Shown in pieces: positions 3,129-21,337 of a DNA stretch of 21,435 bases (its first letter is position 1; the number at the start of each line of letters is the position of its first letter). The DNA comes from a virus, in IMG/VR virus record IMGVR_UViG_3300036768_001154, positions 1 to 21,435 of that record. One strand, given 5' to 3'. The notes under the pieces were generated by a model, which had not been told where the DNA came from, ran no database searches, and saw only the letters and a program-made list of their open reading frames with translations. A program made the position numbers and the translations under genes.

Positions 3129-3391
3129 TACCCGTAATAGGCCACGTTGAGAATCGAACCCGGCGCGGTTTCCAGCAATGCCAGCGCTTTCAGGTTTCCC
3201 GTGTACGGCCAGGGCGAATCGAGCAACATGCCCACCGTGGAGGACGGCGCTTGTCCGTCATCGCGATATCGCCAACCCCCCACTTCGACCTGCAAAATAG
3301 CTCGCTTCGCGCCATCTGGCACCGTAAGGTATCGCACCAATCCATTGGCGACAATCTGTTCGTATCCGACGGGAGAATTGATATCTATCAT
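3128..3391 (-). CDS. Small structural protein of unknown function
   Basis: An 87-residue protein starting MIDINSPVGYEQIV. It is beta-rich with several conserved-looking turns (VGGWRYRDDGQAP, VGMLLDSPWPYTG) and has no signal peptide or membrane segment. Its ATG overlaps the portal stop codon (ATGA) and its own stop overlaps the next start, so it is translationally coupled between the portal and the lectin-like adhesin. The context suggests a small head-tail or tail-decoration component. I do not recognise a family and give no specific function. Confidence 0.6.
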   Translation of the reverse strand: MIDINSPVGYEQIVANGLVRYLTVPDGAKRAILQVEVGGWRYRDDGQAPSSTVGMLLDSPWPYTGNLKALALLETAPGSILNVAYYG

Positions 3392-5580
3392 GCGGGTATC
3401 TCTGAAGTCTTTAGGTTTGTAGGGGCGGTATCGGTCTGTCGCTGCTGCAACAGCTTCGCCAAATGCGCCACCTGCTCAGCCAGCATCCGCAGTGTCTCCT
3501 CGCTGCCGTCCTTTACCGCGTCGGCCTCGTTGCGCACCTTCTCCGCCTGGGCTTCCTTCAGCGCCACCTGGGCTTTCATATCGGCCACTTCGAGCGCTGC
3601 CATCTGGCCCTGAATCGCCTGCTGCTGTTGGTTTGCCACGCTAGCCTGCTGCGCAGCCTGCGCGGCCTGCGCCTGCTCTTCCTCGGAAAGCTGCGCCTGC
3701 GGTTTCGGTACGCCTAGCACTTGTCGCAGCTCGTTGATGAACGTCTCCTTGTTCGGAATATCGCTCAGCTCCAGCACCTGCGGCAGCAGCTTCAGCGATA
3801 TTTCCGGCGGCAGCTTCTGGAGCATGTCCATCAACTGCTCGAACATCGCGGCGCGCACGGTCGCGTGGAAATCCTGCTCGGATACCACGAAATCGGCCTC
3901 CTCTTCGGTAATATCGTTCAGAAACCGCACCGACCCATCCGGCTGAACCTCCGGCTGATTGACGTGCAGCCACTCGATCTTGCCCTTGGCGCCGGTCAGC
4001 CGGATCACCCGCGGCTCCGCCATAAACTGCTCGCACAAGCTCAACAGCTTCTGCCCGTGCAACTGCTTCGCGAATCTCAGATTATCGAAAATTTCCGCCG
4101 TCGTCACCGACCCCTGCATCTGTCGGGCCTCGATCGCCTTGCCCGACACCGCATTGGTCCTGCGTCCCATCAGCTCATCCGTCACCCCGCTGGATGACTG
4201 GATGTGCATGTGGTCCCGCTCCATCAGCCTCACCTGGCCTTCGGCCAGTTGCGCGTCGCTTCGGATCTCCAGCTCCGCGCCGCGCCGTTTCACGATGACG
4301 GAATCCGGCCGCGCCACCTCCTGCCGCAGCTCATCGACGTCGTCGACCGCGCCGTCCTCCATCACCACACGGTTGGTAGATAGCATCCACAGCGCCTTGG
4401 ACGCCCGCTTGTTGTAATCCTCCTGCGGATCGCGCAACTGCCGAATCACCCCATACGGCGCATTGTCCCGCCCGCGGCGATAACACCAGATCGGCGTCAG
4501 CGGAAACCGGTTATGCCGGTAGGGGCTCTTCCCGGCCCACAATAGCGCCCGCTCCGTGAACACCGCGCAGCGCATCTCGAATGTGATGCAGTCGAACAAC
4601 GACACCGCGCCGCCCTCGACCGCCGCCGCATGGCCAGGATCGTCGGGATTGAACACCTGCCCATGCAGCCCGGACAGGCCGCGCATCTTCTGCACCCGCA
4701 CCGGTACCGTGTACCAGCCCTCGATGAGCCGCACCCGCTTACGGCGGTAATTGATGTAAGTCGTGTCGGAAACGTAGGTCCGCCGGTCGAACGTCAGCGC
4801 CTTCGCCGGATCGCCCTGGCCGATCACCTGGCCCAGATACCAGAACTCCTCGCCCTGCTCATCCATCCCGCCCGTCATCAAATCGGAATTTCGGATCACC
4901 GCCTGTTCGATGATCGCCTTCCGATCGGGGAACAATGCCAGTGCGATATCCTCATCCACCCATTTCCAGCGGAACAGGTAGCGCCAGTCCTGCTGGTCCC
5001 GATCCTTGCCGGACGAATCGTACAGCACATTGCGCCACGACTCGCACGATGAATAGATCGGCTCATCGGCCTCATCGCCCCGGATACCGCATTCCAGCCA
5101 GCCCAGCCCCACGATCACCGCGCTCCGGAACGCCTCGCTGATCGCCCACGGCTCATTGTTCACGTCCGACAAGTACTTCATCAGACCCGTCTTCACCTCC
5201 GCCAGCGTTCCGCCTTCGTCCCGCCGCGGCAGAATCTTCCAGTCCAGCGGCGTCCGCTTCTGCGTCCCCGTGATCCAGTCGCAGACCGGCTTCACCAGGT
5301 TGAACACCAGCGGCCACTGGCCGCGCTCCTTCAGCTCATCCACGTCGTCCGGGTCCCACTGCAACCCGTCGTAGAAATCCTGATCCAACGCCATCTGATA
5401 GCGATTGATCGACTGCTTCGTCCGCTCCGCCGTGTACCAGCTCATCAGATCGCGGTGAAGCTGCTGCATCTCGCCCGAATCGAGCGGATGCGCCGCAGAA
5501 TCCGCTATGCCATCGTCGAACGGGTCAGGCAACCCGAACGGATCGGGGCGCGACTGTGCGCGGACGTTTTCGATGCCCAT
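3388..5580 (-). CDS. P22-like portal protein
   Basis: A 730-residue protein, close to the 725 residues of P22 gp1. Portals form the dodecameric ring at one capsid vertex through which DNA is packaged and ejected. Portal features include an N-terminal helical region (SWYTAERTKQSINRYQMALDQ), the FYDGLQWDPDD segment, a core with WRNVLYDSSGKDRDQQDWRY, and a long C-terminal region rich in Gln, Ala and Glu that is predicted to form the helical barrel and a coiled coil (about 625-715). MGIENVR at 5580 is chosen because GAGG lies six bases upstream and the ATG overlaps the previous stop (TGATG). The in-frame start at 5613 would overlap the previous gene further. Its position downstream of the terminase fits. 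Confidence 0.9.
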   Translation of the reverse strand: MGIENVRAQSRPDPFGLPDPFDDGIADSAAHPLDSGEMQQLHRDLMSWYTAERTKQSINRYQMALDQDFYDGLQWDPDDVDELKERGQWPLVFNLVKPVCDWITGTQKRTPLDWKILPRRDEGGTLAEVKTGLMKYLSDVNNEPWAISEAFRSAVIVGLGWLECGIRGDEADEPIYSSCESWRNVLYDSSGKDRDQQDWRYLFRWKWVDEDIALALFPDRKAIIEQAVIRNSDLMTGGMDEQGEEFWYLGQVIGQGDPAKALTFDRRTYVSDTTYINYRRKRVRLIEGWYTVPVRVQKMRGLSGLHGQVFNPDDPGHAAAVEGGAVSLFDCITFEMRCAVFTERALLWAGKSPYRHNRFPLTPIWCYRRGRDNAPYGVIRQLRDPQEDYNKRASKALWMLSTNRVVMEDGAVDDVDELRQEVARPDSVIVKRRGAELEIRSDAQLAEGQVRLMERDHMHIQSSSGVTDELMGRRTNAVSGKAIEARQMQGSVTTAEIFDNLRFAKQLHGQKLLSLCEQFMAEPRVIRLTGAKGKIEWLHVNQPEVQPDGSVRFLNDITEEEADFVVSEQDFHATVRAAMFEQLMDMLQKLPPEISLKLLPQVLELSDIPNKETFINELRQVLGVPKPQAQLSEEEQAQAAQAAQQASVANQQQQAIQGQMAALEVADMKAQVALKEAQAEKVRNEADAVKDGSEETLRMLAEQVAHLAKLLQQRQTDTAPTNLKTSEIPA

Positions 5581-5885
5581 CAGCGCCTCGGCGGATCGGC
5601 GAATCGCGCACAATCATCAAGCCCAATACCCCTGATACGCTCCTGATCAAATTTCCGTATTTTTGCGACCAACGGCAGGTCGGCGTGGCTCGTTTTCAGG
5701 AACCAATTGTACAAATATCCTTTAAACATGAGATCGGGATTGGGCTTTTCGGAAAACGGAGAGCGGTCGATCTCGGCGAATCCGTGCCTTACAAGCAGCC
5801 GAAAGACATGCGGTGCGAGCCACGCGCGAAGCCGACCAGGCTTCGGTTTCCAGTGCAAAAGGGGATAGTCTCTGTCTTTTTTCAT
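5580..5885 (-). CDS. Hypothetical protein between head genes
   Basis: A 101-residue basic protein (MKKDRDYPLLHWKPKPGRLR at the start) with several aromatic residues and the hydrophobic stretch FKGYLYNWFLK. It shows no recognisable domain. It overlaps the gene before it by ATGA and the portal start by TGATG, so it is coupled to both. Its DNA is noticeably more A+T-rich than its neighbours (for example around 5640-5730), which may mark a later insertion into the packaging/head module. The function is unknown. Confidence 0.5.
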   Translation of the reverse strand: MKKDRDYPLLHWKPKPGRLRAWLAPHVFRLLVRHGFAEIDRSPFSEKPNPDLMFKGYLYNWFLKTSHADLPLVAKIRKFDQERIRGIGLDDCARFADPPRR

Positions 5886-6361: not shown

Positions 6362-7906
6362 TCAAACCACCTTATGACTTCGCGGCCTCGACCGCCGCAC
6401 AGACTGCATCTGCGAGAGCGAAGCCACCCGATACCCTTGCGCGAACTGCCGGAACGCATCCGCACCGTTCGACGCATGATTGTGCAGCGGCTGGTTGCGG
6501 AACACCCCGTTCCGGTCGTCCCATGATTTCTGATACTCCTCCAGCGCAATCAACCCCTTATCGCAACGTTCCGCATCAATCCAGCACGACGGCAGCACCT
6601 TGCGCACCAGCTCGATACCGTCATTCACATCCGGGATACGCGGCACCACATGAATCGCATTATACGGCACGCCCAGCTCCACCAGGCGCTCCACCCGGCT
6701 CTGATCGTGCTCCAGATTCCGGTGCTCGGCATCGTGCGGCAGGTAGTAGTCGCCAAAAACATAGCCCTCCTTGACCCGTAGCCCCTCCAGCACGTTCACA
6801 TAGTGCGCCAGTCCGACCCCTGAATCCTCGAAATACCGGATGAACCGATGCTCGCCGGCCACAAACTGGTGAAACCAAATCGCCGTCACATCGTTGCGTC
6901 CCAGGTCCCAGAACGTATTCACTGGCATGCTCGGCACATGCGGCACCCGGGTGATCCGCCCCTGCTGCCGCATGCGCGCCAGAATCGCCCCGTAGTAACT
7001 CCCCACCAGCGCCTGCTCGAAGGCCTCATCCGGCGTACTCGGGAACTCCTGCTTCATCTTCTCACCCAGCGTCTCTGCCTTTTTGGCGTACCAGGCGCGT
7101 TGACTCGCATCCAGCACTATCCCGTGCTCCGTCTCCAACCCCAGAAAATACTGCTGCAACTCCGCCGTAATCAGCACATTCTCCGGCGCGATCCGGTACT
7201 CGGCCTTCTCAAACCATGGATAAAAATGGAACTTGAAGTCCAGCGGCGTCAACACCGCCCCCGTCCGTTTCTTATCCTGCGCCTTCTTGCACATCTCGTA
7301 AAAGTGCCCCGACCGCCCCTCGGCGGTCGATTCCACGTAAATGCGCTGGCCTGCGTGCACCGCGTTGAAGGCGCCCGTCACAATCTCCTCCGCCTTGTCT
7401 GGATACTTCCGGCAAATCTTCCCGAACTCCGACACATGCAGAAACTGCACCGTCCCGGACCGCATCGACGTCCCCACCGATATTTCCGAACCGTTCGAGA
7501 ACACCAACTGCGTCGCCGAATCGTTCACGCGCTGCACCGCCGTCTGCAACTGCTCCGGCAGATTGTCGTAGGCGTACTTCACCTTCTTCCGGAAAATCTT
7601 ACCCGCATCTTCCAGATTGTGCGCGATGATTCCCGCCGCGATATTCGCGTTGAACACACACGTATCCAGCGCTAGCAGGTCGATCAACGTCGTGAACCCC
7701 AGCTGTCTCGCCTTCAAAATGACGTTCAAATACCACTGCGCGTGATAAAACTGAAGCTGCTCCGCATTCGGACGGAACGCCACGCGCCGTCCCTGCTCAT
7801 CCTGAATCCAGTACAGGTTGTGCAGCCGCCACAGCGGGTCCTCCCACTGCGCCAGATTCAGTTCAAGCCGCGGCGTTCGCCGGGAGGTTGTTCGCGCCTT
7901 TGCCAT
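6362..7906 (-). CDS. Terminase large subunit
   Basis: This 514-residue protein is the packaging motor ATPase and nuclease. The visible motifs are a deviant Walker A KARQLGFTT (about 65-73), a Walker B region FLHVSE (155-160) with the catalytic Glu, the coupling motif STAEG (193-197), and the start of the RNase H-like nuclease domain at FWDLGRNDVTAIW (Asp about 334). Its length is usual for the family. It cuts concatemeric DNA and drives it into the procapsid through the portal. The start at 7906 overlaps the small-subunit gene by 44 bases, with GAG a few bases upstream. A terminator follows the stop. Confidence 0.92.
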   Translation of the reverse strand: MAKARTTSRRTPRLELNLAQWEDPLWRLHNLYWIQDEQGRRVAFRPNAEQLQFYHAQWYLNVILKARQLGFTTLIDLLALDTCVFNANIAAGIIAHNLEDAGKIFRKKVKYAYDNLPEQLQTAVQRVNDSATQLVFSNGSEISVGTSMRSGTVQFLHVSEFGKICRKYPDKAEEIVTGAFNAVHAGQRIYVESTAEGRSGHFYEMCKKAQDKKRTGAVLTPLDFKFHFYPWFEKAEYRIAPENVLITAELQQYFLGLETEHGIVLDASQRAWYAKKAETLGEKMKQEFPSTPDEAFEQALVGSYYGAILARMRQQGRITRVPHVPSMPVNTFWDLGRNDVTAIWFHQFVAGEHRFIRYFEDSGVGLAHYVNVLEGLRVKEGYVFGDYYLPHDAEHRNLEHDQSRVERLVELGVPYNAIHVVPRIPDVNDGIELVRKVLPSCWIDAERCDKGLIALEEYQKSWDDRNGVFRNQPLHNHASNGADAFRQFAQGYRVASLSQMQSVRRSRPRSHKVV

Positions 7907-15704: not shown

Positions 15705-15779
15705 ATGAGCAATGAGACAAGGTGGGCTAGTAACGGCGAACGGGATGATTCAGATCAATCAGTGAGGACATTGTCATGA
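15705..15779 (+). CDS. 24-residue leader peptide coupled to the replication gene
   Basis: MSNETRWASNGERDDSDQSV then RTLS, with GAGGAG six bases before its ATG. Its TGA overlaps the next ATG (ATGA), so ribosomes ending here would restart on the replication gene, which has no clear ribosome site of its own. It is probably a translational-coupling peptide. Confidence 0.5.
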   Translation: MSNETRWASNGERDDSDQSVRTLS

Positions 15780-16621
15780 TCATTCGAACGGCCCGGACAC
15801 AGGGCTTTACGGTGGTGGCCAACAGTCTGATCGAGGATGCTTCGTTGGGCTGGGATGCGCTGGGGCTGCTGGTGTATCTGCTGAGCAAGCCGGATCACTG
15901 GCAGATCAAGCCGGCGACACTGGCGAAACAGCGCAACGCGGGGAAGGACAAGATTTATTCGATGTTGAAGCAGTTGCGCGAGGCGGGCTATGTCACGTTT
16001 CGCAAGTATGCGTCGGGGCATACGGATTGGCTGGTGTTCGACACGAAACAGGACTGGGCTGATGGCTCTGGGAATCCTCCCGATTTGGCGGATGAGAGCA
16101 GCACGCCTGATCCGGAAAAGCCAGGTCTTGAAAGCCCAGACCGGGCTTTTCCGGACGACAAAGAAGTAAATACTGAAACAGCAGTAAGAACTGAAAGAGC
16201 AACAAAGACTGAACAAATAACACCCCCTTCCCCCTCACGAAAAATCGCTGCCGACGACGTAGTGGCGGTGTTCGACTACTGGCGGTCAAAAACGGGCCAC
16301 ACGAACGCCAAGCTGTGCGCCAAGCGGCGGCGCTTGATCGCGGCGAGGTTGCGGGAGGGGTATTCGGCGGCCGATCTGTGCCAGGCGATAGACGGCAATC
16401 AGGCCAGCCCGTTCCACCAGGGTGAAAACGAGCACGGGCGGGTGTTTGATGCGATCGAGCTGATCTTCCGCAGCGCGGAGAAGGTAGACGGGTTCATCAA
16501 GTGTTTGTCAGCCCCAAAACGGGCAAGGAGTTCGGGCAATGGCGGGTTACGAGGCTATGCAGGATCGGGCGGAAATTGGCGGGACCGGGTATTTGCCGAC
16601 GACCCCTACCCCGAGTTCTGA
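15776..16621 (+). CDS. Phage replication-initiator-like protein (winged helix)
   Basis: A 281-residue protein. The N-terminal half (about 5-90: GFTVVANSLIEDASLGWDAL, LGLLVYLLSKPDHWQIKPATL, KIYSMLKQLREAGYVTF) is the winged helix-turn-helix seen in many phage replisome-organiser (O-like) proteins, here also resembling plasmid-type initiators. A linker rich in Thr, Glu and Pro (about 95-155) is followed by a second helical domain with VFDYWRSKTGHTNAKLCAKR and a glycine-rich tail. It is expected to bind the phage origin and recruit the helicase loader encoded next. The start overlaps the leader-peptide stop. Confidence 0.75.
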   Translation: MIIRTARTQGFTVVANSLIEDASLGWDALGLLVYLLSKPDHWQIKPATLAKQRNAGKDKIYSMLKQLREAGYVTFRKYASGHTDWLVFDTKQDWADGSGNPPDLADESSTPDPEKPGLESPDRAFPDDKEVNTETAVRTERATKTEQITPPSPSRKIAADDVVAVFDYWRSKTGHTNAKLCAKRRRLIAARLREGYSAADLCQAIDGNQASPFHQGENEHGRVFDAIELIFRSAEKVDGFIKCLSAPKRARSSGNGGLRGYAGSGGNWRDRVFADDPYPEF

Positions 16622-17222
16622 GCCGCAGGAAGACCCGCTGAAGCCGGTGATCCGGGCGATGTTCGATGCGCTATCGGCCGATTACGGGGATCGGTTTCTG
16701 TCGCAGTTCCGCGGGCCGGGTGCGTCGAAGCCGAATGCCTGGAAATACCGGATGCTGGCGTTGCTCAAGGGGATTTCACCGGCCGCCGTGGTGGAGGGTT
16801 TCGAGCAATGCTGCGCAGAGCATCCGGAGTTTCCGCCGACGGCGCGGTCGATTGCGGATGCGGCGAAGCGCCGTGCGGCGGAGATAGCGAACCTGGAGCG
16901 GCAGCAGGCTGAAGCGAACCGGCGGGCGATGTTAGCAGCACCCGCGGAGTTGGCCTGCGAAGCGGGCCAAGCTCGGATTTTGCAGATGCGTCGCGAGGCG
17001 TTCGCTCGGGCGGCGGAAGGCGGGGAAGAGGGCCGGGCACAGCGACTGAAGGCGGCGCTGGCGGAGCATGAAGCGATTCTGCGGGCGTCTGGGGTGTTGC
17101 GGCGGACTGATGCGGCGGCAATGAAGCTGTGTGCGGTGGCAGGGTGCGATCGGCCGGGGACGGTGGCGCATTCAACGCGGCCGGAGTTGTGGTTGTGTTC
17201 CGAGCATGGGCGGAGGCGGTGA
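16539..17222 (+). CDS. Protein in the helicase-loader position, C-terminal zinc-binding cluster
   Basis: A 227-residue protein starting MAGYEAMQDRAEIGG, with AAGGAG nine bases before ATG 16539. The first part is proline-rich; residues about 35-110 (DPLKPVIRAMFDALSADYGD then RFLSQF, and WKYRMLALLKGISPAAVVEG) resemble the loader-type (P-like) replication proteins of phages. A long Ala/Arg/Glu helix follows. It ends in CAVAGCDRP...LWLCSEHGRRR, a likely zinc site with C-x4-C and C-x2-H. Overlap with the initiator gene by 83 bases and the position behind it support a role in helicase loading. Confidence 0.6.
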   Translation: MAGYEAMQDRAEIGGTGYLPTTPTPSSEPQEDPLKPVIRAMFDALSADYGDRFLSQFRGPGASKPNAWKYRMLALLKGISPAAVVEGFEQCCAEHPEFPPTARSIADAAKRRAAEIANLERQQAEANRRAMLAAPAELACEAGQARILQMRREAFARAAEGGEEGRAQRLKAALAEHEAILRASGVLRRTDAAAMKLCAVAGCDRPGTVAHSTRPELWLCSEHGRRR

Positions 17223-17761
17223 TGTGTGTGTTCGAGGCGATATCTCGGCGGCTGAATGTACAGAATCAGCGCATGGGGTTGATAGGGCGGGGCCAAGGTG
17301 GCCTGGGCCTGAGCGCGGCGGAGGTTTCGGCGATGCTGGCTGGACTGCCGACACCGGTACAGGCGCTGGTGCTGGCGAAGGTCACCGGTGACCGGGCATC
17401 GATGAGCTATCTGAAGTCTGCGCTGATGGCCGAAGTGGGCGATCTGGCGCGCAAGCGGGAGTGGAAGGTCGGGAATGCCACGGGTCGCCTGGATCGCCTA
17501 GGGGAGCTAGTGCGGCTGGAGCGATTGGCGGAACTGGTGCGGGATGATCTGGCGCTTGACCGGGTGCGTTCGGGGTCTGAGGCAGTTAACCGGGTGGCGG
17601 GACGGTATTGGCCGGATGCCAGGCGTATCGAGTTTTTAGGGCTTGATAAGGCGTCGTGGATCCGGACCTGGCGGTTCCGGTATGGGGATTTGCTGCGCAT
17701 TGGGCAAGATTGGGAGGCGCAAGCTCGGGTGCATTTGGGGCGGGAGTATTTTGGGCGGTAG
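17222..17761 (+). CDS. Hypothetical protein, last phage gene before the csf locus
   Basis: A 179-residue protein from ATG 17222 overlapping the preceding stop (TGATG). It is rich in Arg and Leu and helical, with LSAAEVSAMLAGLPTPVQAL, a run of LxRLxxLVRLERLAELV, and WIRTWRFRYGDLLRIGQDW near the end. The Arg-rich helical character and the place just behind the replication genes are those of a late antiterminator or DNA-binding protein, but no signature is seen. The stop is five bases before the csf1 start, so transcription probably continues into the CRISPR locus. Confidence 0.5.
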   Translation: MCVFEAISRRLNVQNQRMGLIGRGQGGLGLSAAEVSAMLAGLPTPVQALVLAKVTGDRASMSYLKSALMAEVGDLARKREWKVGNATGRLDRLGELVRLERLAELVRDDLALDRVRSGSEAVNRVAGRYWPDARRIEFLGLDKASWIRTWRFRYGDLLRIGQDWEAQARVHLGREYFGR

Positions 17762-17766
17762 GACCG

Positions 17767-18573
17767 ATGATGTCGCACACATCCCTTATGCACGCCGCTG
17801 CTGGCCATCCGGCCCACGGTCTTGAGGCGTCACCCTCCGACAATGGTGTGTGCGCCACCTGCGGCGCATCGATTGACGCTGGCGTGCCGATATCCGCCAT
17901 CGAGACGCCAACCACGTCCGGCCACGCCGATCTTTTCCGCTTCGGCGGGCATCACGTGTGCGATGCCTGCGCCTGGCTCTTTGGTGCTGGCAAGGGCAGG
18001 CCCGGCAACGTCGTCGCCATCCCGCAGCGCCTGGAATACACCGTCATCAGCCTGGAGTCTGTCGTCGAGGACAAACGCCCGTGGCTGACCGTGCTGCGCG
18101 AGCTGGCCGAGATGCCCGCAGACACGCCAGCGACCGGCATCATGACTACCGACGTCAAGCCGCGCCTGTGGCACCGCTGCCGACGGGCGACGATAGGCCG
18201 CTTCGGCCTCTACGTGCACGCGCCTGAGTACGACGTAAGCGAGTGGCGCGATTTCGACCTGCCTGCCTGCCTGGCCGTGATCGATCTGATGCTCGCGCCG
18301 CTGCGCGCGGGCTTTGCCAAGGCCAGCGTGTATCACGGCCTGCTGTGCGACTACGCGCGCGCCCGCCGCGATCTGCCGCAGGTCATGGCGTGGGACGCGG
18401 CGCTGTCGATCCACCGCCAGCAGCCGCATTTTTTGCCAGCATTGATCGCCGCTGGCGTCACCAAAGGAGAGAAGACCGATGACAAACCCGCTGCAAGACC
18501 TGTTGTCCACGCTCAGCCCGCCTCAGCAGGCGGCCATCCAGCTGATCAAACTCAGCTTGGACTGTTTCAATAG
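17767..18573 (+). CDS. csf1: Csf1-like type IV large subunit with zinc finger
   Basis: A 268-residue protein. A four-cysteine zinc finger is visible: Cys29 and Cys32 (CATC) pair with Cys65 and Cys68 (CDAC), separated by about 32 residues, as in the Csf1 (Cas8-like) proteins of type IV CRISPR effectors. The rest is mixed alpha/beta with WLTVLRELAEMPADTPATG, LWHRCRRATIGRFGLYVHA and a long helical C-terminus. It would cap the backbone and contact target DNA. Its start lies five bases after the previous stop; ATG 17767 or 17770 could be used, and AGGA suits 17770 better. The last 31 codons overlap the next gene and end TQLGLFQ. The assignment rests on the zinc finger plus the following csf genes. 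Confidence 0.8.
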   Translation: MMSHTSLMHAAAGHPAHGLEASPSDNGVCATCGASIDAGVPISAIETPTTSGHADLFRFGGHHVCDACAWLFGAGKGRPGNVVAIPQRLEYTVISLESVVEDKRPWLTVLRELAEMPADTPATGIMTTDVKPRLWHRCRRATIGRFGLYVHAPEYDVSEWRDFDLPACLAVIDLMLAPLRAGFAKASVYHGLLCDYARARRDLPQVMAWDAALSIHRQQPHFLPALIAAGVTKGEKTDDKPAARPVVHAQPASAGGHPADQTQLGLFQ

Positions 18574-18931
18574 CGCCGATGGCGCCGGCCTGTTCGGTGG
18601 CGCCGAGCGCTATAACGTGCTGGCCGGGCGCGTCGAAATCTGCGCTGTGCAGGCGGACAGTCTGCCGCGCTTCTGGGCACTCCTGCTGCGCAGGATGCAG
18701 TGGCCCGTCCCGCCGAAGGCGGCAGATGCAGCGATCCTCCAGGCCATCAGTGCGCCCGGCGCGCACGAGGTGCTGCGCGTGCTGGCGACCGAGACGGCCA
18801 GCGTCATCACCCTGGCACGCATGGCGCACGATCAAGACAAATCCGCGCGGCGCGCACTGCGGCAAGCCTTTGACCCGGAGACGGGAGAAATCGACGAACT
18901 CAACGACCCATTACCGGAGGGCCTCCTGTGA
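18479..18931 (+). CDS. cas11: Cas11-like small subunit of the type IV effector
   Basis: A 150-residue, almost entirely helical protein starting MTNPLQDLLSTLSPPQQAAI, with AGGAGAG upstream of ATG 18479. Helices such as LPRFWALLLRRMQW and HEVLRVLATETASVITLARM fit the small alpha-helical subunits (Cas11) that line the inner side of class 1 effectors. Small subunits diverge too far to be recognised by sequence alone, so the call comes from length, helical content and position between csf1 and csf2, as in type IV-B loci. It overlaps csf1 by 95 bases and csf2 by GTGA. Confidence 0.65.
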   Translation: MTNPLQDLLSTLSPPQQAAIQLIKLSLDCFNSADGAGLFGGAERYNVLAGRVEICAVQADSLPRFWALLLRRMQWPVPPKAADAAILQAISAPGAHEVLRVLATETASVITLARMAHDQDKSARRALRQAFDPETGEIDELNDPLPEGLL

Positions 18932-19767
18932 AATACCAAATCCTACTGCAAGCCGTCACCCCTATCAGCCACGGCGATACCGTGACCGGTGTCGACAACC
19001 ACACCAACACCCGCATATTCATGCGCCAGGGCATGTTGATCGACGGCAAGCCCGCGCGCGTTCCGTCGATCTCGGAGAATGCGCTGCGCAGCGTGATATT
19101 CCGCTACCCGCTGCATGACCATCTGCTGCGTGCCCTGGAGATCGAGCGCGGGCAGATGCCGCAGGCCGTGGTCAATCTGCTGTTCTCCGGCGGCAACATG
19201 GCGAGCGGTGCCAAAGCGCCAACCAACGAGATCGCGCTCGGGCACCAGGTCAAGCAGCTCTATCCGAGCATTGATCTGCTCGGCGGGGCCGTGGATTCAT
19301 TCATCCTGCCGCGCTCTCGGATGCGCCTGGCTGCGTGGCTGGTGGCGCGCGAGTACCTGCCCGCCTTGCGTCTGGTGGCCCCGGAGCTTGCCGACGAGGC
19401 CGCTGGCGTATCGGCCTACGACATGCTCACCGAGGAGACGCGCACGCGCGGCACCGGCAGCGAGTCGAGCGGCAACCAGATGCTCTATACCTACGAGACA
19501 CTGGCCGCTGGTGCCCAGCTGCTGCTGGAGGTGAGCCTGGACGCCCACACGCCAGCGGCAACGGCGTCAGCGGCGTCACATGCGCTGGCGTGCTGGGACG
19601 GCTACATCGGCGGTCAGTCGCGGCAAGGGCGTGGGCGGATGGAGGTCGTACGCGCCAACCTGGGCAGTACGGACGCCTACCTCGCGCACATCGACGCGTA
19701 CAGAGACGCCATGCGCGACGGGTTGGTGACGGGCAAGCTGGGCACGGAGCGGGTGCTGTGTCAGTAG
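18928..19767 (+). CDS. csf2: Csf2, Cas7-family backbone subunit
   Basis: A 279-residue RAMP-type protein starting at GTG 18928 (KYQILLQAVTPISHGDTVTG), a pattern of Csf2/Cas7: a first beta strand, then PISHG, and later IDGKPARVPSISENALRSVI. Further segments are GSESSGNQMLYTYETLAAGA and GYIGGQSRQGRGRMEVV near the end, the glycine-rich loop of RAMP folds. Copies of Csf2 polymerise along RNA to form the type IV filament. Start and stop are coupled to the genes on both sides. This is the clearest marker of the type IV locus. Confidence 0.88.
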   Translation: MKYQILLQAVTPISHGDTVTGVDNHTNTRIFMRQGMLIDGKPARVPSISENALRSVIFRYPLHDHLLRALEIERGQMPQAVVNLLFSGGNMASGAKAPTNEIALGHQVKQLYPSIDLLGGAVDSFILPRSRMRLAAWLVAREYLPALRLVAPELADEAAGVSAYDMLTEETRTRGTGSESSGNQMLYTYETLAAGAQLLLEVSLDAHTPAATASAASHALACWDGYIGGQSRQGRGRMEVVRANLGSTDAYLAHIDAYRDAMRDGLVTGKLGTERVLCQ

Positions 19768-20501
19768 ACTGGACACGCATCGGACCGTTGCCGCAGGTCT
19801 CGCCCTGGCGACACGGGCAGCGAACGCTATCATGGGAGCAGCGCCGCGACCAATACGCAGCCCTGCCCAAGATAGGACTGACGATCATCGCAGAGCTGGC
19901 GACGCCGGTCATCCCCGCCGAGCGGGACCGGACACACCTGGACGGCATCCTGTCGAGCGCGGCCATCACCGACCACCCTGCGCCAAGCGCGTGGGGTAAA
20001 GTCGCCATCGTCCCGCTGCCGCTCGACCTGCTGTGGGTCAGCCCGCGCGGCCTGCCGCTATGGTCCTGCACGCCGCTCGTGCCAGCGGATGATGCGCTGG
20101 CTGTGACCATCCGCGAGTATTGGCACAAACGCTACCCCACCGACCGCGCCGATTTTGGCGCCAAGCTGAGCGCCAACACCTCATCAGGCCGCTGGCGCGA
20201 GTACAGGATGCCGGTGGCGGCGCAGTCGGCAATCCGTCTCGTGGCGCTTGCCATCGGCCATGCCGCAGAGGTGCAGCGTCTGCTGGATGGCATTACGCAC
20301 ATCGGCAAAAAAGGCAGCATGGGCTATGGCCGCGTGCTGCGCTGGACGGTGACAGAGACGGCCGGCGTGACGCCCGATGACATCCTGTCGCGCCGTCCGG
20401 TACCGGTAGCATCCGGACTAAGGCAGGGTGACCCGTTGCCCCTGCGCGGCTGGACGCCGCCCTACTGGTACGCGCCGCACTGGGAGGACTGCGTAGGATG
20501 A
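19758..20501 (+). CDS. csf3: Csf3, Cas5-family subunit
   Basis: A 247-residue protein from GTG 19758, overlapping csf2 by ten bases. It begins VSVDWTRIGPLPQVSPWRHG, has LAATPVI-like strands (TIIAELATPVIPAERDRTHL), a core with FGAKLSANTSSGRWREYRMP, and the glycine-rich RAMP loop ITHIGKKGSMGYGRVLRWTV (about 183-200), the hallmark of Csf3/Cas5 proteins. Csf3 caps the 5' end of the guide in type IV effectors. With no cas6 nearby, whether it helps process any guide is unknown. It is coupled to the cysH-like gene by an ATGA overlap. Confidence 0.85.
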   Translation: MSVDWTRIGPLPQVSPWRHGQRTLSWEQRRDQYAALPKIGLTIIAELATPVIPAERDRTHLDGILSSAAITDHPAPSAWGKVAIVPLPLDLLWVSPRGLPLWSCTPLVPADDALAVTIREYWHKRYPTDRADFGAKLSANTSSGRWREYRMPVAAQSAIRLVALAIGHAAEVQRLLDGITHIGKKGSMGYGRVLRWTVTETAGVTPDDILSRRPVPVASGLRQGDPLPLRGWTPPYWYAPHWEDCVG

Positions 20502-21262
20502 CGCCGATGCAACGCGCCGCCTATCTTGCCCACTGGCGCACCGATGTCATGCGGCGTCGCGTGTCTGAAGCGCACTCCGTCCTTGCTCGCGCATCCAGCC
20601 TTGGGCGCGTATCGGTCAGCATGTCGTGGGGCAAGGACAGCGTGGTGGCGGGGCATCTTGCGCTGCAATGCCTGCCTCCGCCCGTCACCCTGATACACAT
20701 CGCCAGCGCCTACCGGCTGCCAGGATTTGAGCGTGTGCAAGCGTACTTTTCGGGGCTGGCAGACCTGCATATCATCGAGCCGCGACGGACTCTGCAAGAG
20801 ACCATCGCGTGGCTGCGCGAGGTGGGGCTGCCGCACGAGCGCACGGCGTCACAGCAGCGGGCGGTGGTCAAGGCGATCAAGAAAGACGTCGGCACCGCAT
20901 GGTGCGTTGACCACGGCTTTGGTGTGCAGGTGATGGGCATCCGTGCGGGTGAGAGCAAGGCACGCAAGGCGCTTTTCCGCGCCAAGGGCGCGATCTACGA
21001 CGCGCATGGCATCAAGGCGGCCTGTCCGCTGGCCTGGTGGACTGCAAAGGATGTGTGGGCGTATATCGTCGCCCATGACCTGCCGTATCACCCGCTCTAT
21101 GACTGTGAGACGCACGGAGAGACGCGCGAGACGCTGCGCAACACCGGGTGGCTCTCCACAGACGGCGCAGAGCACGGCCGGATCGTGTGGCTGCGTGAGC
21201 ACTACCCGGAGCAGTACGCGATGCTTGCGCGTCACTTCGGGCGGGCGACGGCTTATACATAG
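20498..21262 (+). CDS. cysH: CysH-like PP-loop protein of the type IV-B locus
   Basis: A 254-residue member of the adenine-nucleotide alpha-hydrolase family. The PP-loop SMSWGKDS (41-48), GIRAGESKAR (147-156), and PLAWWTAKDVWAYI...LPYHPLYD (177-202) match the PAPS-reductase (CysH) fold. The catalytic ECG[LI]H motif of CysH and the CC/CxxC iron-sulfur ligands are missing: only isolated Cys58, 136, 176 and 203 remain. It can therefore bind ATP or a related nucleotide but is unlikely to reduce sulfate. CysH-like genes are the signature companion of type IV-B csf loci, with unknown function. GGGAGG lies upstream of ATG 20498. Confidence 0.85.
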   Translation: MTPMQRAAYLAHWRTDVMRRRVSEAHSVLARASSLGRVSVSMSWGKDSVVAGHLALQCLPPPVTLIHIASAYRLPGFERVQAYFSGLADLHIIEPRRTLQETIAWLREVGLPHERTASQQRAVVKAIKKDVGTAWCVDHGFGVQVMGIRAGESKARKALFRAKGAIYDAHGIKAACPLAWWTAKDVWAYIVAHDLPYHPLYDCETHGETRETLRNTGWLSTDGAEHGRIVWLREHYPEQYAMLARHFGRATAYT

Positions 21263-21309
21263 GGCCCTGACCCGGCCACCGGCCAGACGCAAAAAATTTG
21301 TCCGCCCTC

Positions 21310-21337
21310 TTGACGTCCATGCGTAGGCGTGTATAAT
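21310..21337 (+). promoter_or_regulatory. Strong sigma70-like promoter after the csf locus
   Basis: TTGACG (21310-21315) and a perfect TATAAT (21332-21337) are 16 bases apart. It lies 47 bases after the cysH-like stop and points to the next gene. Transcription would start about 21344, next to a short ATG frame (21345-21404, 19 codons) that overlaps the next start by ATGA and may be a leader. Confidence 0.85.

Follow-up and report, generated by a model that had tools for sequence, protein, structure and literature searches.

The window analyzed here is the whole of IMG/VR virus record IMGVR_UViG_3300036768_001154, a linear stretch of 21,435 bases, and positions 17767 to 21262 of its plus strand carry an array-less type IV-B CRISPR (clustered regularly interspaced short palindromic repeats)-Cas module with the gene order csf1-cas11-csf2-csf3-cysH. 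Sequence comparison with related loci leaves us nearly certain of three things taken together: that the module is of type IV-B, that it passes from phage to phage as a single cassette with precise boundaries, and that within the cassette the gene for the CysH-like protein is exchanged independently of the genes for the Csf proteins. In the genes it contains the module is ordinary; what is new is that it moves and that it evolves in modules. Most likely, it consists of two separately evolving parts, a conserved RNA-binding platform made of Csf1, Cas11, Csf2 and Csf3, and a CysH-like PP-loop enzyme that can be exchanged.

A sequence-only reading of the window had proposed five overlapping plus-strand genes of type IV-B at this place, and all five open reading frames (ORFs) exist, with overlapping junctions. 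The large subunit gene csf1 (17767–18573; 268 amino acids) has a zinc finger at Cys29, Cys32, Cys65 and Cys68 and matches PADLOC typeIV_Cas8 at 1.3e-10, over residues 9 to 78 only; the four cysteines are invariant in all nine aligned Csf1 proteins. The small subunit gene cas11 (18479–18931; 150 amino acids) matches four typeIV_Cas11 models of PADLOC, the best at 1.4e-4. Then follow csf2 (18928–19767; 279 amino acids), the Cas7-type backbone, with matches to PADLOC at 2.2e-33 and to the Csf2 of 7jhy at 1.6e-7, and csf3 (19758–20501; 247 amino acids), the Cas5-type protein, with the loop GKKGSMGYG at residue 183 and matches to PADLOC at 2.6e-31 and, by profile, to the Csf3 of 7xfz at 3.3e-4. The last gene, the exchanged one, is the cysH-like PP-loop gene (20498–21262; 254 amino acids), which matches Pfam PF01507 PAPS_reduct at 2.9e-18. 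The type IV-B identity is borne out by the PADLOC matches of Cas11, Csf2 and Csf3, with a PAPS_reduct gene alongside and a Csf1 match confined to the zinc finger; Csf2 and Csf3, on whose profile matches the proposal had been staked, both gave them in the hidden Markov model (HMM) search of the five proteins.

The set is divergent, since the NCBIfam Csf models are matched far below their equivalog cut-offs (Csf2 against TIGR03115, 8.6e-5, 21.9 bits, cut-off 130; Csf3 against TIGR03116, 2.2e-11, 43.8 bits, cut-off 140). A Pfam search gave no match for the four Csf proteins of the window. Against the sequences in PDB, the Csf1 profile found no convincing relative and the Cas11 profile no meaningful match, none being below E 0.9. 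The marks of type IV-A, namely DinG/Csf4, Cas6 and an array, were absent from the window cassette and the neighboring genes scanned, and a search of the window for PF08798 (Cas6e) found no match. In a Csf2 tree of 21 sequences, 15 loci of this group, four other type IV-B sequences and two of type IV-A stand apart from one another; the type IV-A two are near-identical and too few for rooting. An argument concerning a catalytic aspartate in Csf2 (the D23 loop against D42 of 7jhy) was dropped, because a two-residue shift affects the alignment at that point.

When IMG/VR was scanned with Csf2, Csf1, Cas11, Csf3 and CysH, 13 contigs besides the window came to light, and a single scan of genome contigs added three from metagenome-assembled genomes (MAGs); with the window, this makes 17 loci, 14 on IMG/VR contigs and three on MAG contigs. 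The Csf group is found here mainly on tailed-phage contigs: hallmark phage genes are seen on 10 of the 17, namely the window, G001 (the contig of L002), G002 (the contig of L003), G003, G004, L020 (HyVt), L032, L033, L061 and L067. The other seven comprise five IMG/VR records, L018, L027 (on contig G009), L063, L064 and L065, and two short MAG contigs, L019 (Gallionellaceae) and L021. In L032 just csf3 and cysH were recovered; in L033 the recovered genes are csf2 (in part), csf3 and cysH.

The extent of the moving unit can be read from the DNA that these loci share. By blastn, the window is 87% identical to L002 over 17762–21261 of the plus strand and 86% identical to L003 over 17771–21263, and no DNA match to either was found beyond the cassette; the edges of this shared stretch of about 3.5 kb are the start of csf1 and the stop of cysH. 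Of the remaining 25 proteins of the window, just three have any match among the 26 loci compared, at 27–47% identity. G001 and G002 are related to each other in mosaic fashion: apart from the cassette, they have stretches of DNA in common that are 77–98% identical, and they share terminase, RecE/RecT and other genes at 88–99% protein identity; that their flanks might be unrelated is ruled out by these genes, shared in the whole contigs. Their cassettes are 95% identical and differently sited. In G001 the cassette stands in the head-gene region, flanked by genes for a minor head protein and the head protease, and in G002 it follows RecE/RecT, a place at which G001 has RecE/RecT without the cassette. 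This kinship, with the cassette at different sites, strengthens the case for movement. Further sites are after replication genes in the window, before the primase in G003, downstream of RecT in G004, before terminase gpA in L020 and L032, and before the portal gene in L033. Since the sites differ among phages, shared expression timing cannot be assumed; the expression with early genes suggested by the sequence-only reading fits the window only, given the head genes around the G001 cassette and the terminase or portal genes that follow it in L020, L032 and L033. In the window and all six relatives measured, the cassette is richer in G+C than its flanks are.

Could the cassette instead be an assembly join, or a functionless passenger in decay? 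The window does end 173 bases past cysH, and the csf2 of L065 contains an in-frame stop. However, the whole cassette recurs within other phage contigs with different flanks, which refutes the join and upholds the earlier view of the module as phage cargo, and a complete set is present in the genome of an isolated phage, SPI1. Moreover, the ratio of nonsynonymous to synonymous substitution (dN/dS) is 0.08–0.34 in 15 of 15 gene comparisons among the window, L002 and L003; because these values are well below 1, the genes are kept by purifying selection. We give this explanation next to no weight.

Within the cassette, cysH has a history of its own. Between the window and L032, Csf3 is 87% identical (about half of it is present in L032) and CysH 29%, whereas L032 and the Gallionellaceae locus L019 are 65% identical in CysH and 61% in Csf3. 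The Csf2 of G003 is 74–78% identical to those of the window, G004 and L019, and its CysH is 29% identical to that of the window; with HyVt, G003 shares only 37% in Csf3 yet 58% in CysH. In approximately unbiased (AU) tests on 11 loci, three of them without some Csf genes, the CysH alignment rejects the Csf tree (p 3.7e-11), and the CysH tree is rejected by the Csf concatenation (p 4.6e-6) and also by Csf3 alone. The DNA homology between the window and L032 stops 20 nt inside cysH, which places the junction at the start of the gene. These comparisons argue strongly for an independent exchange of CysH. Since cysH is exchanged separately, it is probably the part that determines specificity or acts as the effector.

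PAPS (phosphoadenosine phosphosulfate)-reductase-type genes are frequent in phages (phrog_2302, phrog_424; PMC11437467), and the cysH of the module might accordingly be an ordinary sulfur-metabolism gene that adjoins the csf genes by chance. We consider this very improbable. CysH and the csf genes belong to one gene run in 15 of the 17 loci (in L018/L026 four further ORFs intervene), and the csf-linked proteins keep the PP-loop with no invariant cysteine. Specifically, 11 aligned CysH proteins share the PP-loop S-x-G-K-D-S (SWGKDS in the window) and an E-S-x-x-R motif, and none of their invariant or nearly invariant columns is a cysteine. Among further CysH proteins checked by script, seven of seven have the PP-loop and five of seven G-x-x-x-x-E-S-x-x-R. 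A sulfonucleotide reductase requires a conserved catalytic cysteine (PMC8175902), the property by which a true CysH is known and which the csf-linked proteins lack.

What, then, is the likely chemistry of this enzyme? The model of the window CysH has a predicted local distance difference test (pLDDT) score of 78, with weak stretches at 98–114 and 217–227. Its closest fold is the PAPS domain of human FAD synthase (Z 17.6, root-mean-square deviation (rmsd) 2.4, 162 residues aligned), followed by CysD (Z 17.0, rmsd 2.4, 163 aligned) and by PAPS/APS (adenosine phosphosulfate) reductases (Z 16.5–14.7), with GMP synthase, LarE and the tRNA thiolases NcsA and TtuA lower down (Z 14.1–12.8). The PP-loop fold and the ATP-site motif are common to PAPS reductase CysH, the FAD synthase domain, CysD and the csf-linked CysH, the last of these differing in having no invariant cysteine. 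Because the reductase cysteine is absent, ATP-dependent adenylation is the plainest guess, and adenylation has been proposed for the CysH of plasmid type IV-B systems (PMC8175902). Judging from fold and motif, the csf-linked CysH would most likely adenylate a substrate rather than reduce a sulfonucleotide, although a shared fold in itself shows no function.

It is tempting to propose how the two parts would work together. The Csf proteins may assemble on short RNAs made by others, either host transcripts or host CRISPR RNAs (crRNAs), and the maturation of such crRNAs could, in two relatives, fall to a Cas6e-like endonuclease. The Csf assembly would bring the ATP-using CysH-like enzyme to the bound or base-paired nucleic acid, where the enzyme may activate a substrate by adenylation; as an outcome, host defense would be blunted or a rival element harmed. 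As a whole, that is, a type IV-B cassette in which the Csf platform and CysH evolve separately and act by this mechanism, the proposal is the best explanation that we can offer, and we place it somewhat short of an even chance. The mechanism taken by itself we hold a little more tentatively still, as we infer the RNA source, the target, the chemistry and the benefit to the phage alike. A bolder version would make the module a modular phage weapon, in which a conserved RNA-scaffolded Csf filament, carrying host RNA that in some phages a Cas6e of their own would mature, guides a replaceable adenylating PP-loop enzyme onto nucleic acid, a warhead that would be swapped to match host defenses; its work would be RNA-directed modification, rather than cutting or silencing. 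We regard this version as speculative and unlikely.

Guide takeover is made more concrete by a predicted Cas6e-like gene in two of the 17 loci, lying between csf3 and cysH at L020:11481–12002 and L027:9900–10418. The gene products score above the Pfam cut-off for PF08798, and the comparison with E. coli CasE (3.9e-6) aligns the histidine of YxxHQ, which we take to be the catalytic one of Cas6e. For this family, which is unlike the csf5/Cas6 of type IV-A, 12 records were searched by HMM and the five loci discovered afterwards by tblastn; an IMG/VR scan with the Cas6e-like protein returned L027 only. The MAG of L021 has a Cas6e and Cas1 of its own, and that of L020 has two Cas1 loci, with the reservation that the binning of phage-like contigs is unsure. 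In L020 and L027, the Csf3 loop reads GPNGAAGYG and GPHGAAGYG, respectively, instead of GKKGSMGYG.

Alternatively, the Csf filament might be a sponge that shields the phage by taking up host crRNAs or other small guides, with CysH as a helper that, for example, modifies or releases the captured RNA. The published type IV-B complex of Mycobacterium forms on RNAs that are heterogeneous but uniform in length, and a sponge is mentioned by the authors of that work (PMC7937560); no nuclease or array was found in the window cassette and the neighbors scanned; and the Cas6e-like gene that L020 and L027 carry could give access to host crRNAs. The near-constant retention of CysH, and the fact that it is the part exchanged, would nevertheless be left unexplained, and crRNAs were not enriched in the published complex (PMC7937560). 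We therefore think a sponge possible, and on balance unlikely.

The module might also be aimed at rivals, using host or borrowed guides to keep plasmids or co-infecting phages from being transcribed. This is how plasmid type IV-A acts, silencing competing plasmids without a nuclease (PMC11656645), and the phage genes on 10 of the 17 cassette-bearing contigs are in keeping with it. Against it, the loci examined gave no acceptable array, mini-array or DinG, and no target can be named because no spacer can be read; we judge it improbable, to about the same degree as the weapon with a swapped warhead. The search for arrays used repeat finding, a 16-mer spacing scan and Rfam, and it gave none in the window, which is a fragment of a larger phage, and none that could be accepted in the related contigs examined. 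The closest candidate is in G009 (L038:16751–16910), where six near-palindromic TCCCAAAAACGGGAC-type repeats occur at an irregular spacing of 18–40 bases; they lie within an ORF, some 13 kb away from the cassette. Their spacing and position led us to reject them as an array, and they probably are replication-origin iterons instead. Spaced repeats near 6939 of L038, 16369 of L009 and 6703 of L065, and at 846 of the window, were judged by eye to be tandem or low-complexity sequence.

Returning to the platform with an exchangeable adenylating enzyme, several observations weigh against it. CysH is not universal, as it was not found in L067 (L005 ends before that position), and at L067:4414–5097, on a phage contig, a QueC-family PP-loop gene (6.6e-54) lies between csf1 and cas11. 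The Cas6e-like gene is confined to the two loci named, and neither Cas6e nor Cas1 was found in the MAG of L019, where the same uncertainty of binning applies. In the Mycobacterium complex, co-expressed type I-E crRNAs were not enriched (PMC7937560), which weakens the case for specific guides. Folds like that of the CysH model also thiolate tRNA or make GMP (TtuA, NcsA, LarE, GMP synthase). Finally, the Csf1 match is confined to the zinc finger, the remainder being unmatched (TIGR03114 at 7.1e-4, 19.3 bits against a cut-off of 140), and the Csf1 model, with a pLDDT of 68, has no PDB match by fold. As a separate matter, the QueC-family gene of L067 may be another PP-loop enzyme that replaces CysH, or may stand there by chance.

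The sequence-only reading had seen the novelty of the module in its phage location, a claim that the literature does not sustain. Type IV CRISPR-Cas systems are reported to be present in some phages and prophages (reviewed in PMC11656645), type IV-B with CysH has been described in the archaeal virus Fuxivirus (PMC10848311), and a virus contig with csf2/csf3/csf4 has been reported (PMC9723712); likewise, the 2025 classification has arrays absent from most type IV-B loci (PMC12669027). Cassette transfer, cysH exchange and Cas6e in type IV-B were not found in the literature searched, and Pinilla-Redondo 2020, Moya-Beltran 2021 and Al-Shayeb 2022 may describe them.

Among known systems, the plasmid type IV-B represented by the Mycobacterium sp. 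JS623 complex (7jhy, PMC7937560) shares csf1, cas11, csf2, csf3, the association with cysH, and the lack of an array or nuclease. In contrast, the set described here is on phages and its cysH is exchanged between near-identical csf sets; the window Csf2 is only 26% identical to a Rhodococcus plasmid copy. Fuxivirus, a Bathyarchaeia virus, likewise carries its type IV-B on a virus, with a CysH-like gene adjoining csf3 (PMC10848311); judged by that description, it differs in its archaeal host and its mini-array, as here there are several tailed phages and no array was found. Type IV-A, with csf5/Cas6, DinG/Csf4 and an array, has the Csf1, Csf2 and Csf3 families in common with our loci, in which neither DinG nor an array was found. 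An extended type IV-B set is shared by an IMG/VR contig (L026:9938–13914) and an archaeal Natrinema plasmid (L056:6662–10500). Its extra genes besides CysH encode a PAPS_reduct+DUF3440 protein and, by a weak match, a ParB_N protein, which we take to be IbrA and IbrB.

A complete type IV-B operon is also present in Skermania phage SPI1 (KR011061.1; L054:3063–6696), an isolated phage in which Orf40–44 are all annotated as hypothetical. The five match Csf1 (1.9e-28), Cas11 (5.9e-15), Csf2 (1.2e-66), Csf3 (2.1e-36) and PAPS_reduct (1e-8), and thus are like the window module in families and order; their Csf2 is distant, being 30% identical to that of the window. In the Csf2 tree, the SPI1 protein groups with the Rhodococcus plasmid copy, so that, if the tree is right, type IV-B has been taken up by phages at least twice. 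No published account of this csf set was found in the literature searched, nor any paper there in which Skermania, SPI1 and phage occur together. The function of type IV-B is described as an open question in reviews (PMC8175902, PMC11656645). It is now easier to test, with the unit of exchange defined as csf1 to cysH, cysH exchanged separately, and a complete copy in an isolated phage. The Cas6e-bearing relatives L020 and L027 offer a direct test of guide capture, and an enzyme swapped between near-identical copies is a way into asking about the function of a poorly understood system.

This csf group is rare, as whole-genome samples returned only the seeds (one of 369 in the class of G007 and one of 399 in the order of G006, each the seed itself). 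At a threshold of 1e-5, nothing was returned from 50,697 phage records by megablast of the window or tblastn of its Csf2, or from 72,556 plasmid records by tblastn of that Csf2. Of 300 genomes from the order of G006, 10 had some match to the portal, four of them at 44–50% identity, which is no more than a hint as to the host. Another hint at a host group is the 98% identity of Csf2 between L005, from IMG/VR, and the Gallionellaceae MAG contig L019. At L065:7546–11223, a csf1-like gene follows cysH and csf2 has its in-frame stop at codon 222 of 280; this may reflect a changed order, decay or an assembly error.

The remainder of the window is phage DNA. Its minus strand carries the terminase small and large subunits, portal, endolysin, a DHH phosphoesterase and a deoxynucleoside monophosphate (dNMP) kinase, among them the terminase, portal and lysis genes of the earlier reading. 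The portal gene lies at 3388–5613 of the minus strand (phrog_156, 2.9e-172) and the terminase large subunit gene at 6362–7906 of the same strand (phrog_2, 7.1e-30). The best 12 of 291 portal relatives are in phages of 60.7–63.0 kb, at 42–47% identity, with Parlo, Skulduggery and PEp14 as the named relatives among the matches listed; from these genome sizes, the record is a fragment of a phage genome. Upstream of csf1 on the plus strand, a replication-initiation gene (15776–16621; phrog_16167, 2.1e-22) agrees with the suggestion that the cassette follows phage replication genes. This does not extend to the two ORFs just before csf1 (16539–17222 and 17129–17761, plus strand), which have no family match, so that families assign them no function. 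The second of these ends at 17761, five bases short of csf1, in agreement with the gap first noted.

After cysH, in the last 173 bases of the window, a sigma-70-like promoter at 21310–21337 of the plus strand, probably for the next transcription unit, agrees with the consensus at 11 of 12 positions; this is a consensus match only, and four sites of this quality are seen in the region where 1.4 are expected. By eye, a TTGACA...TATAAT pair at L027:11137–11165, also after cysH, resembles it.

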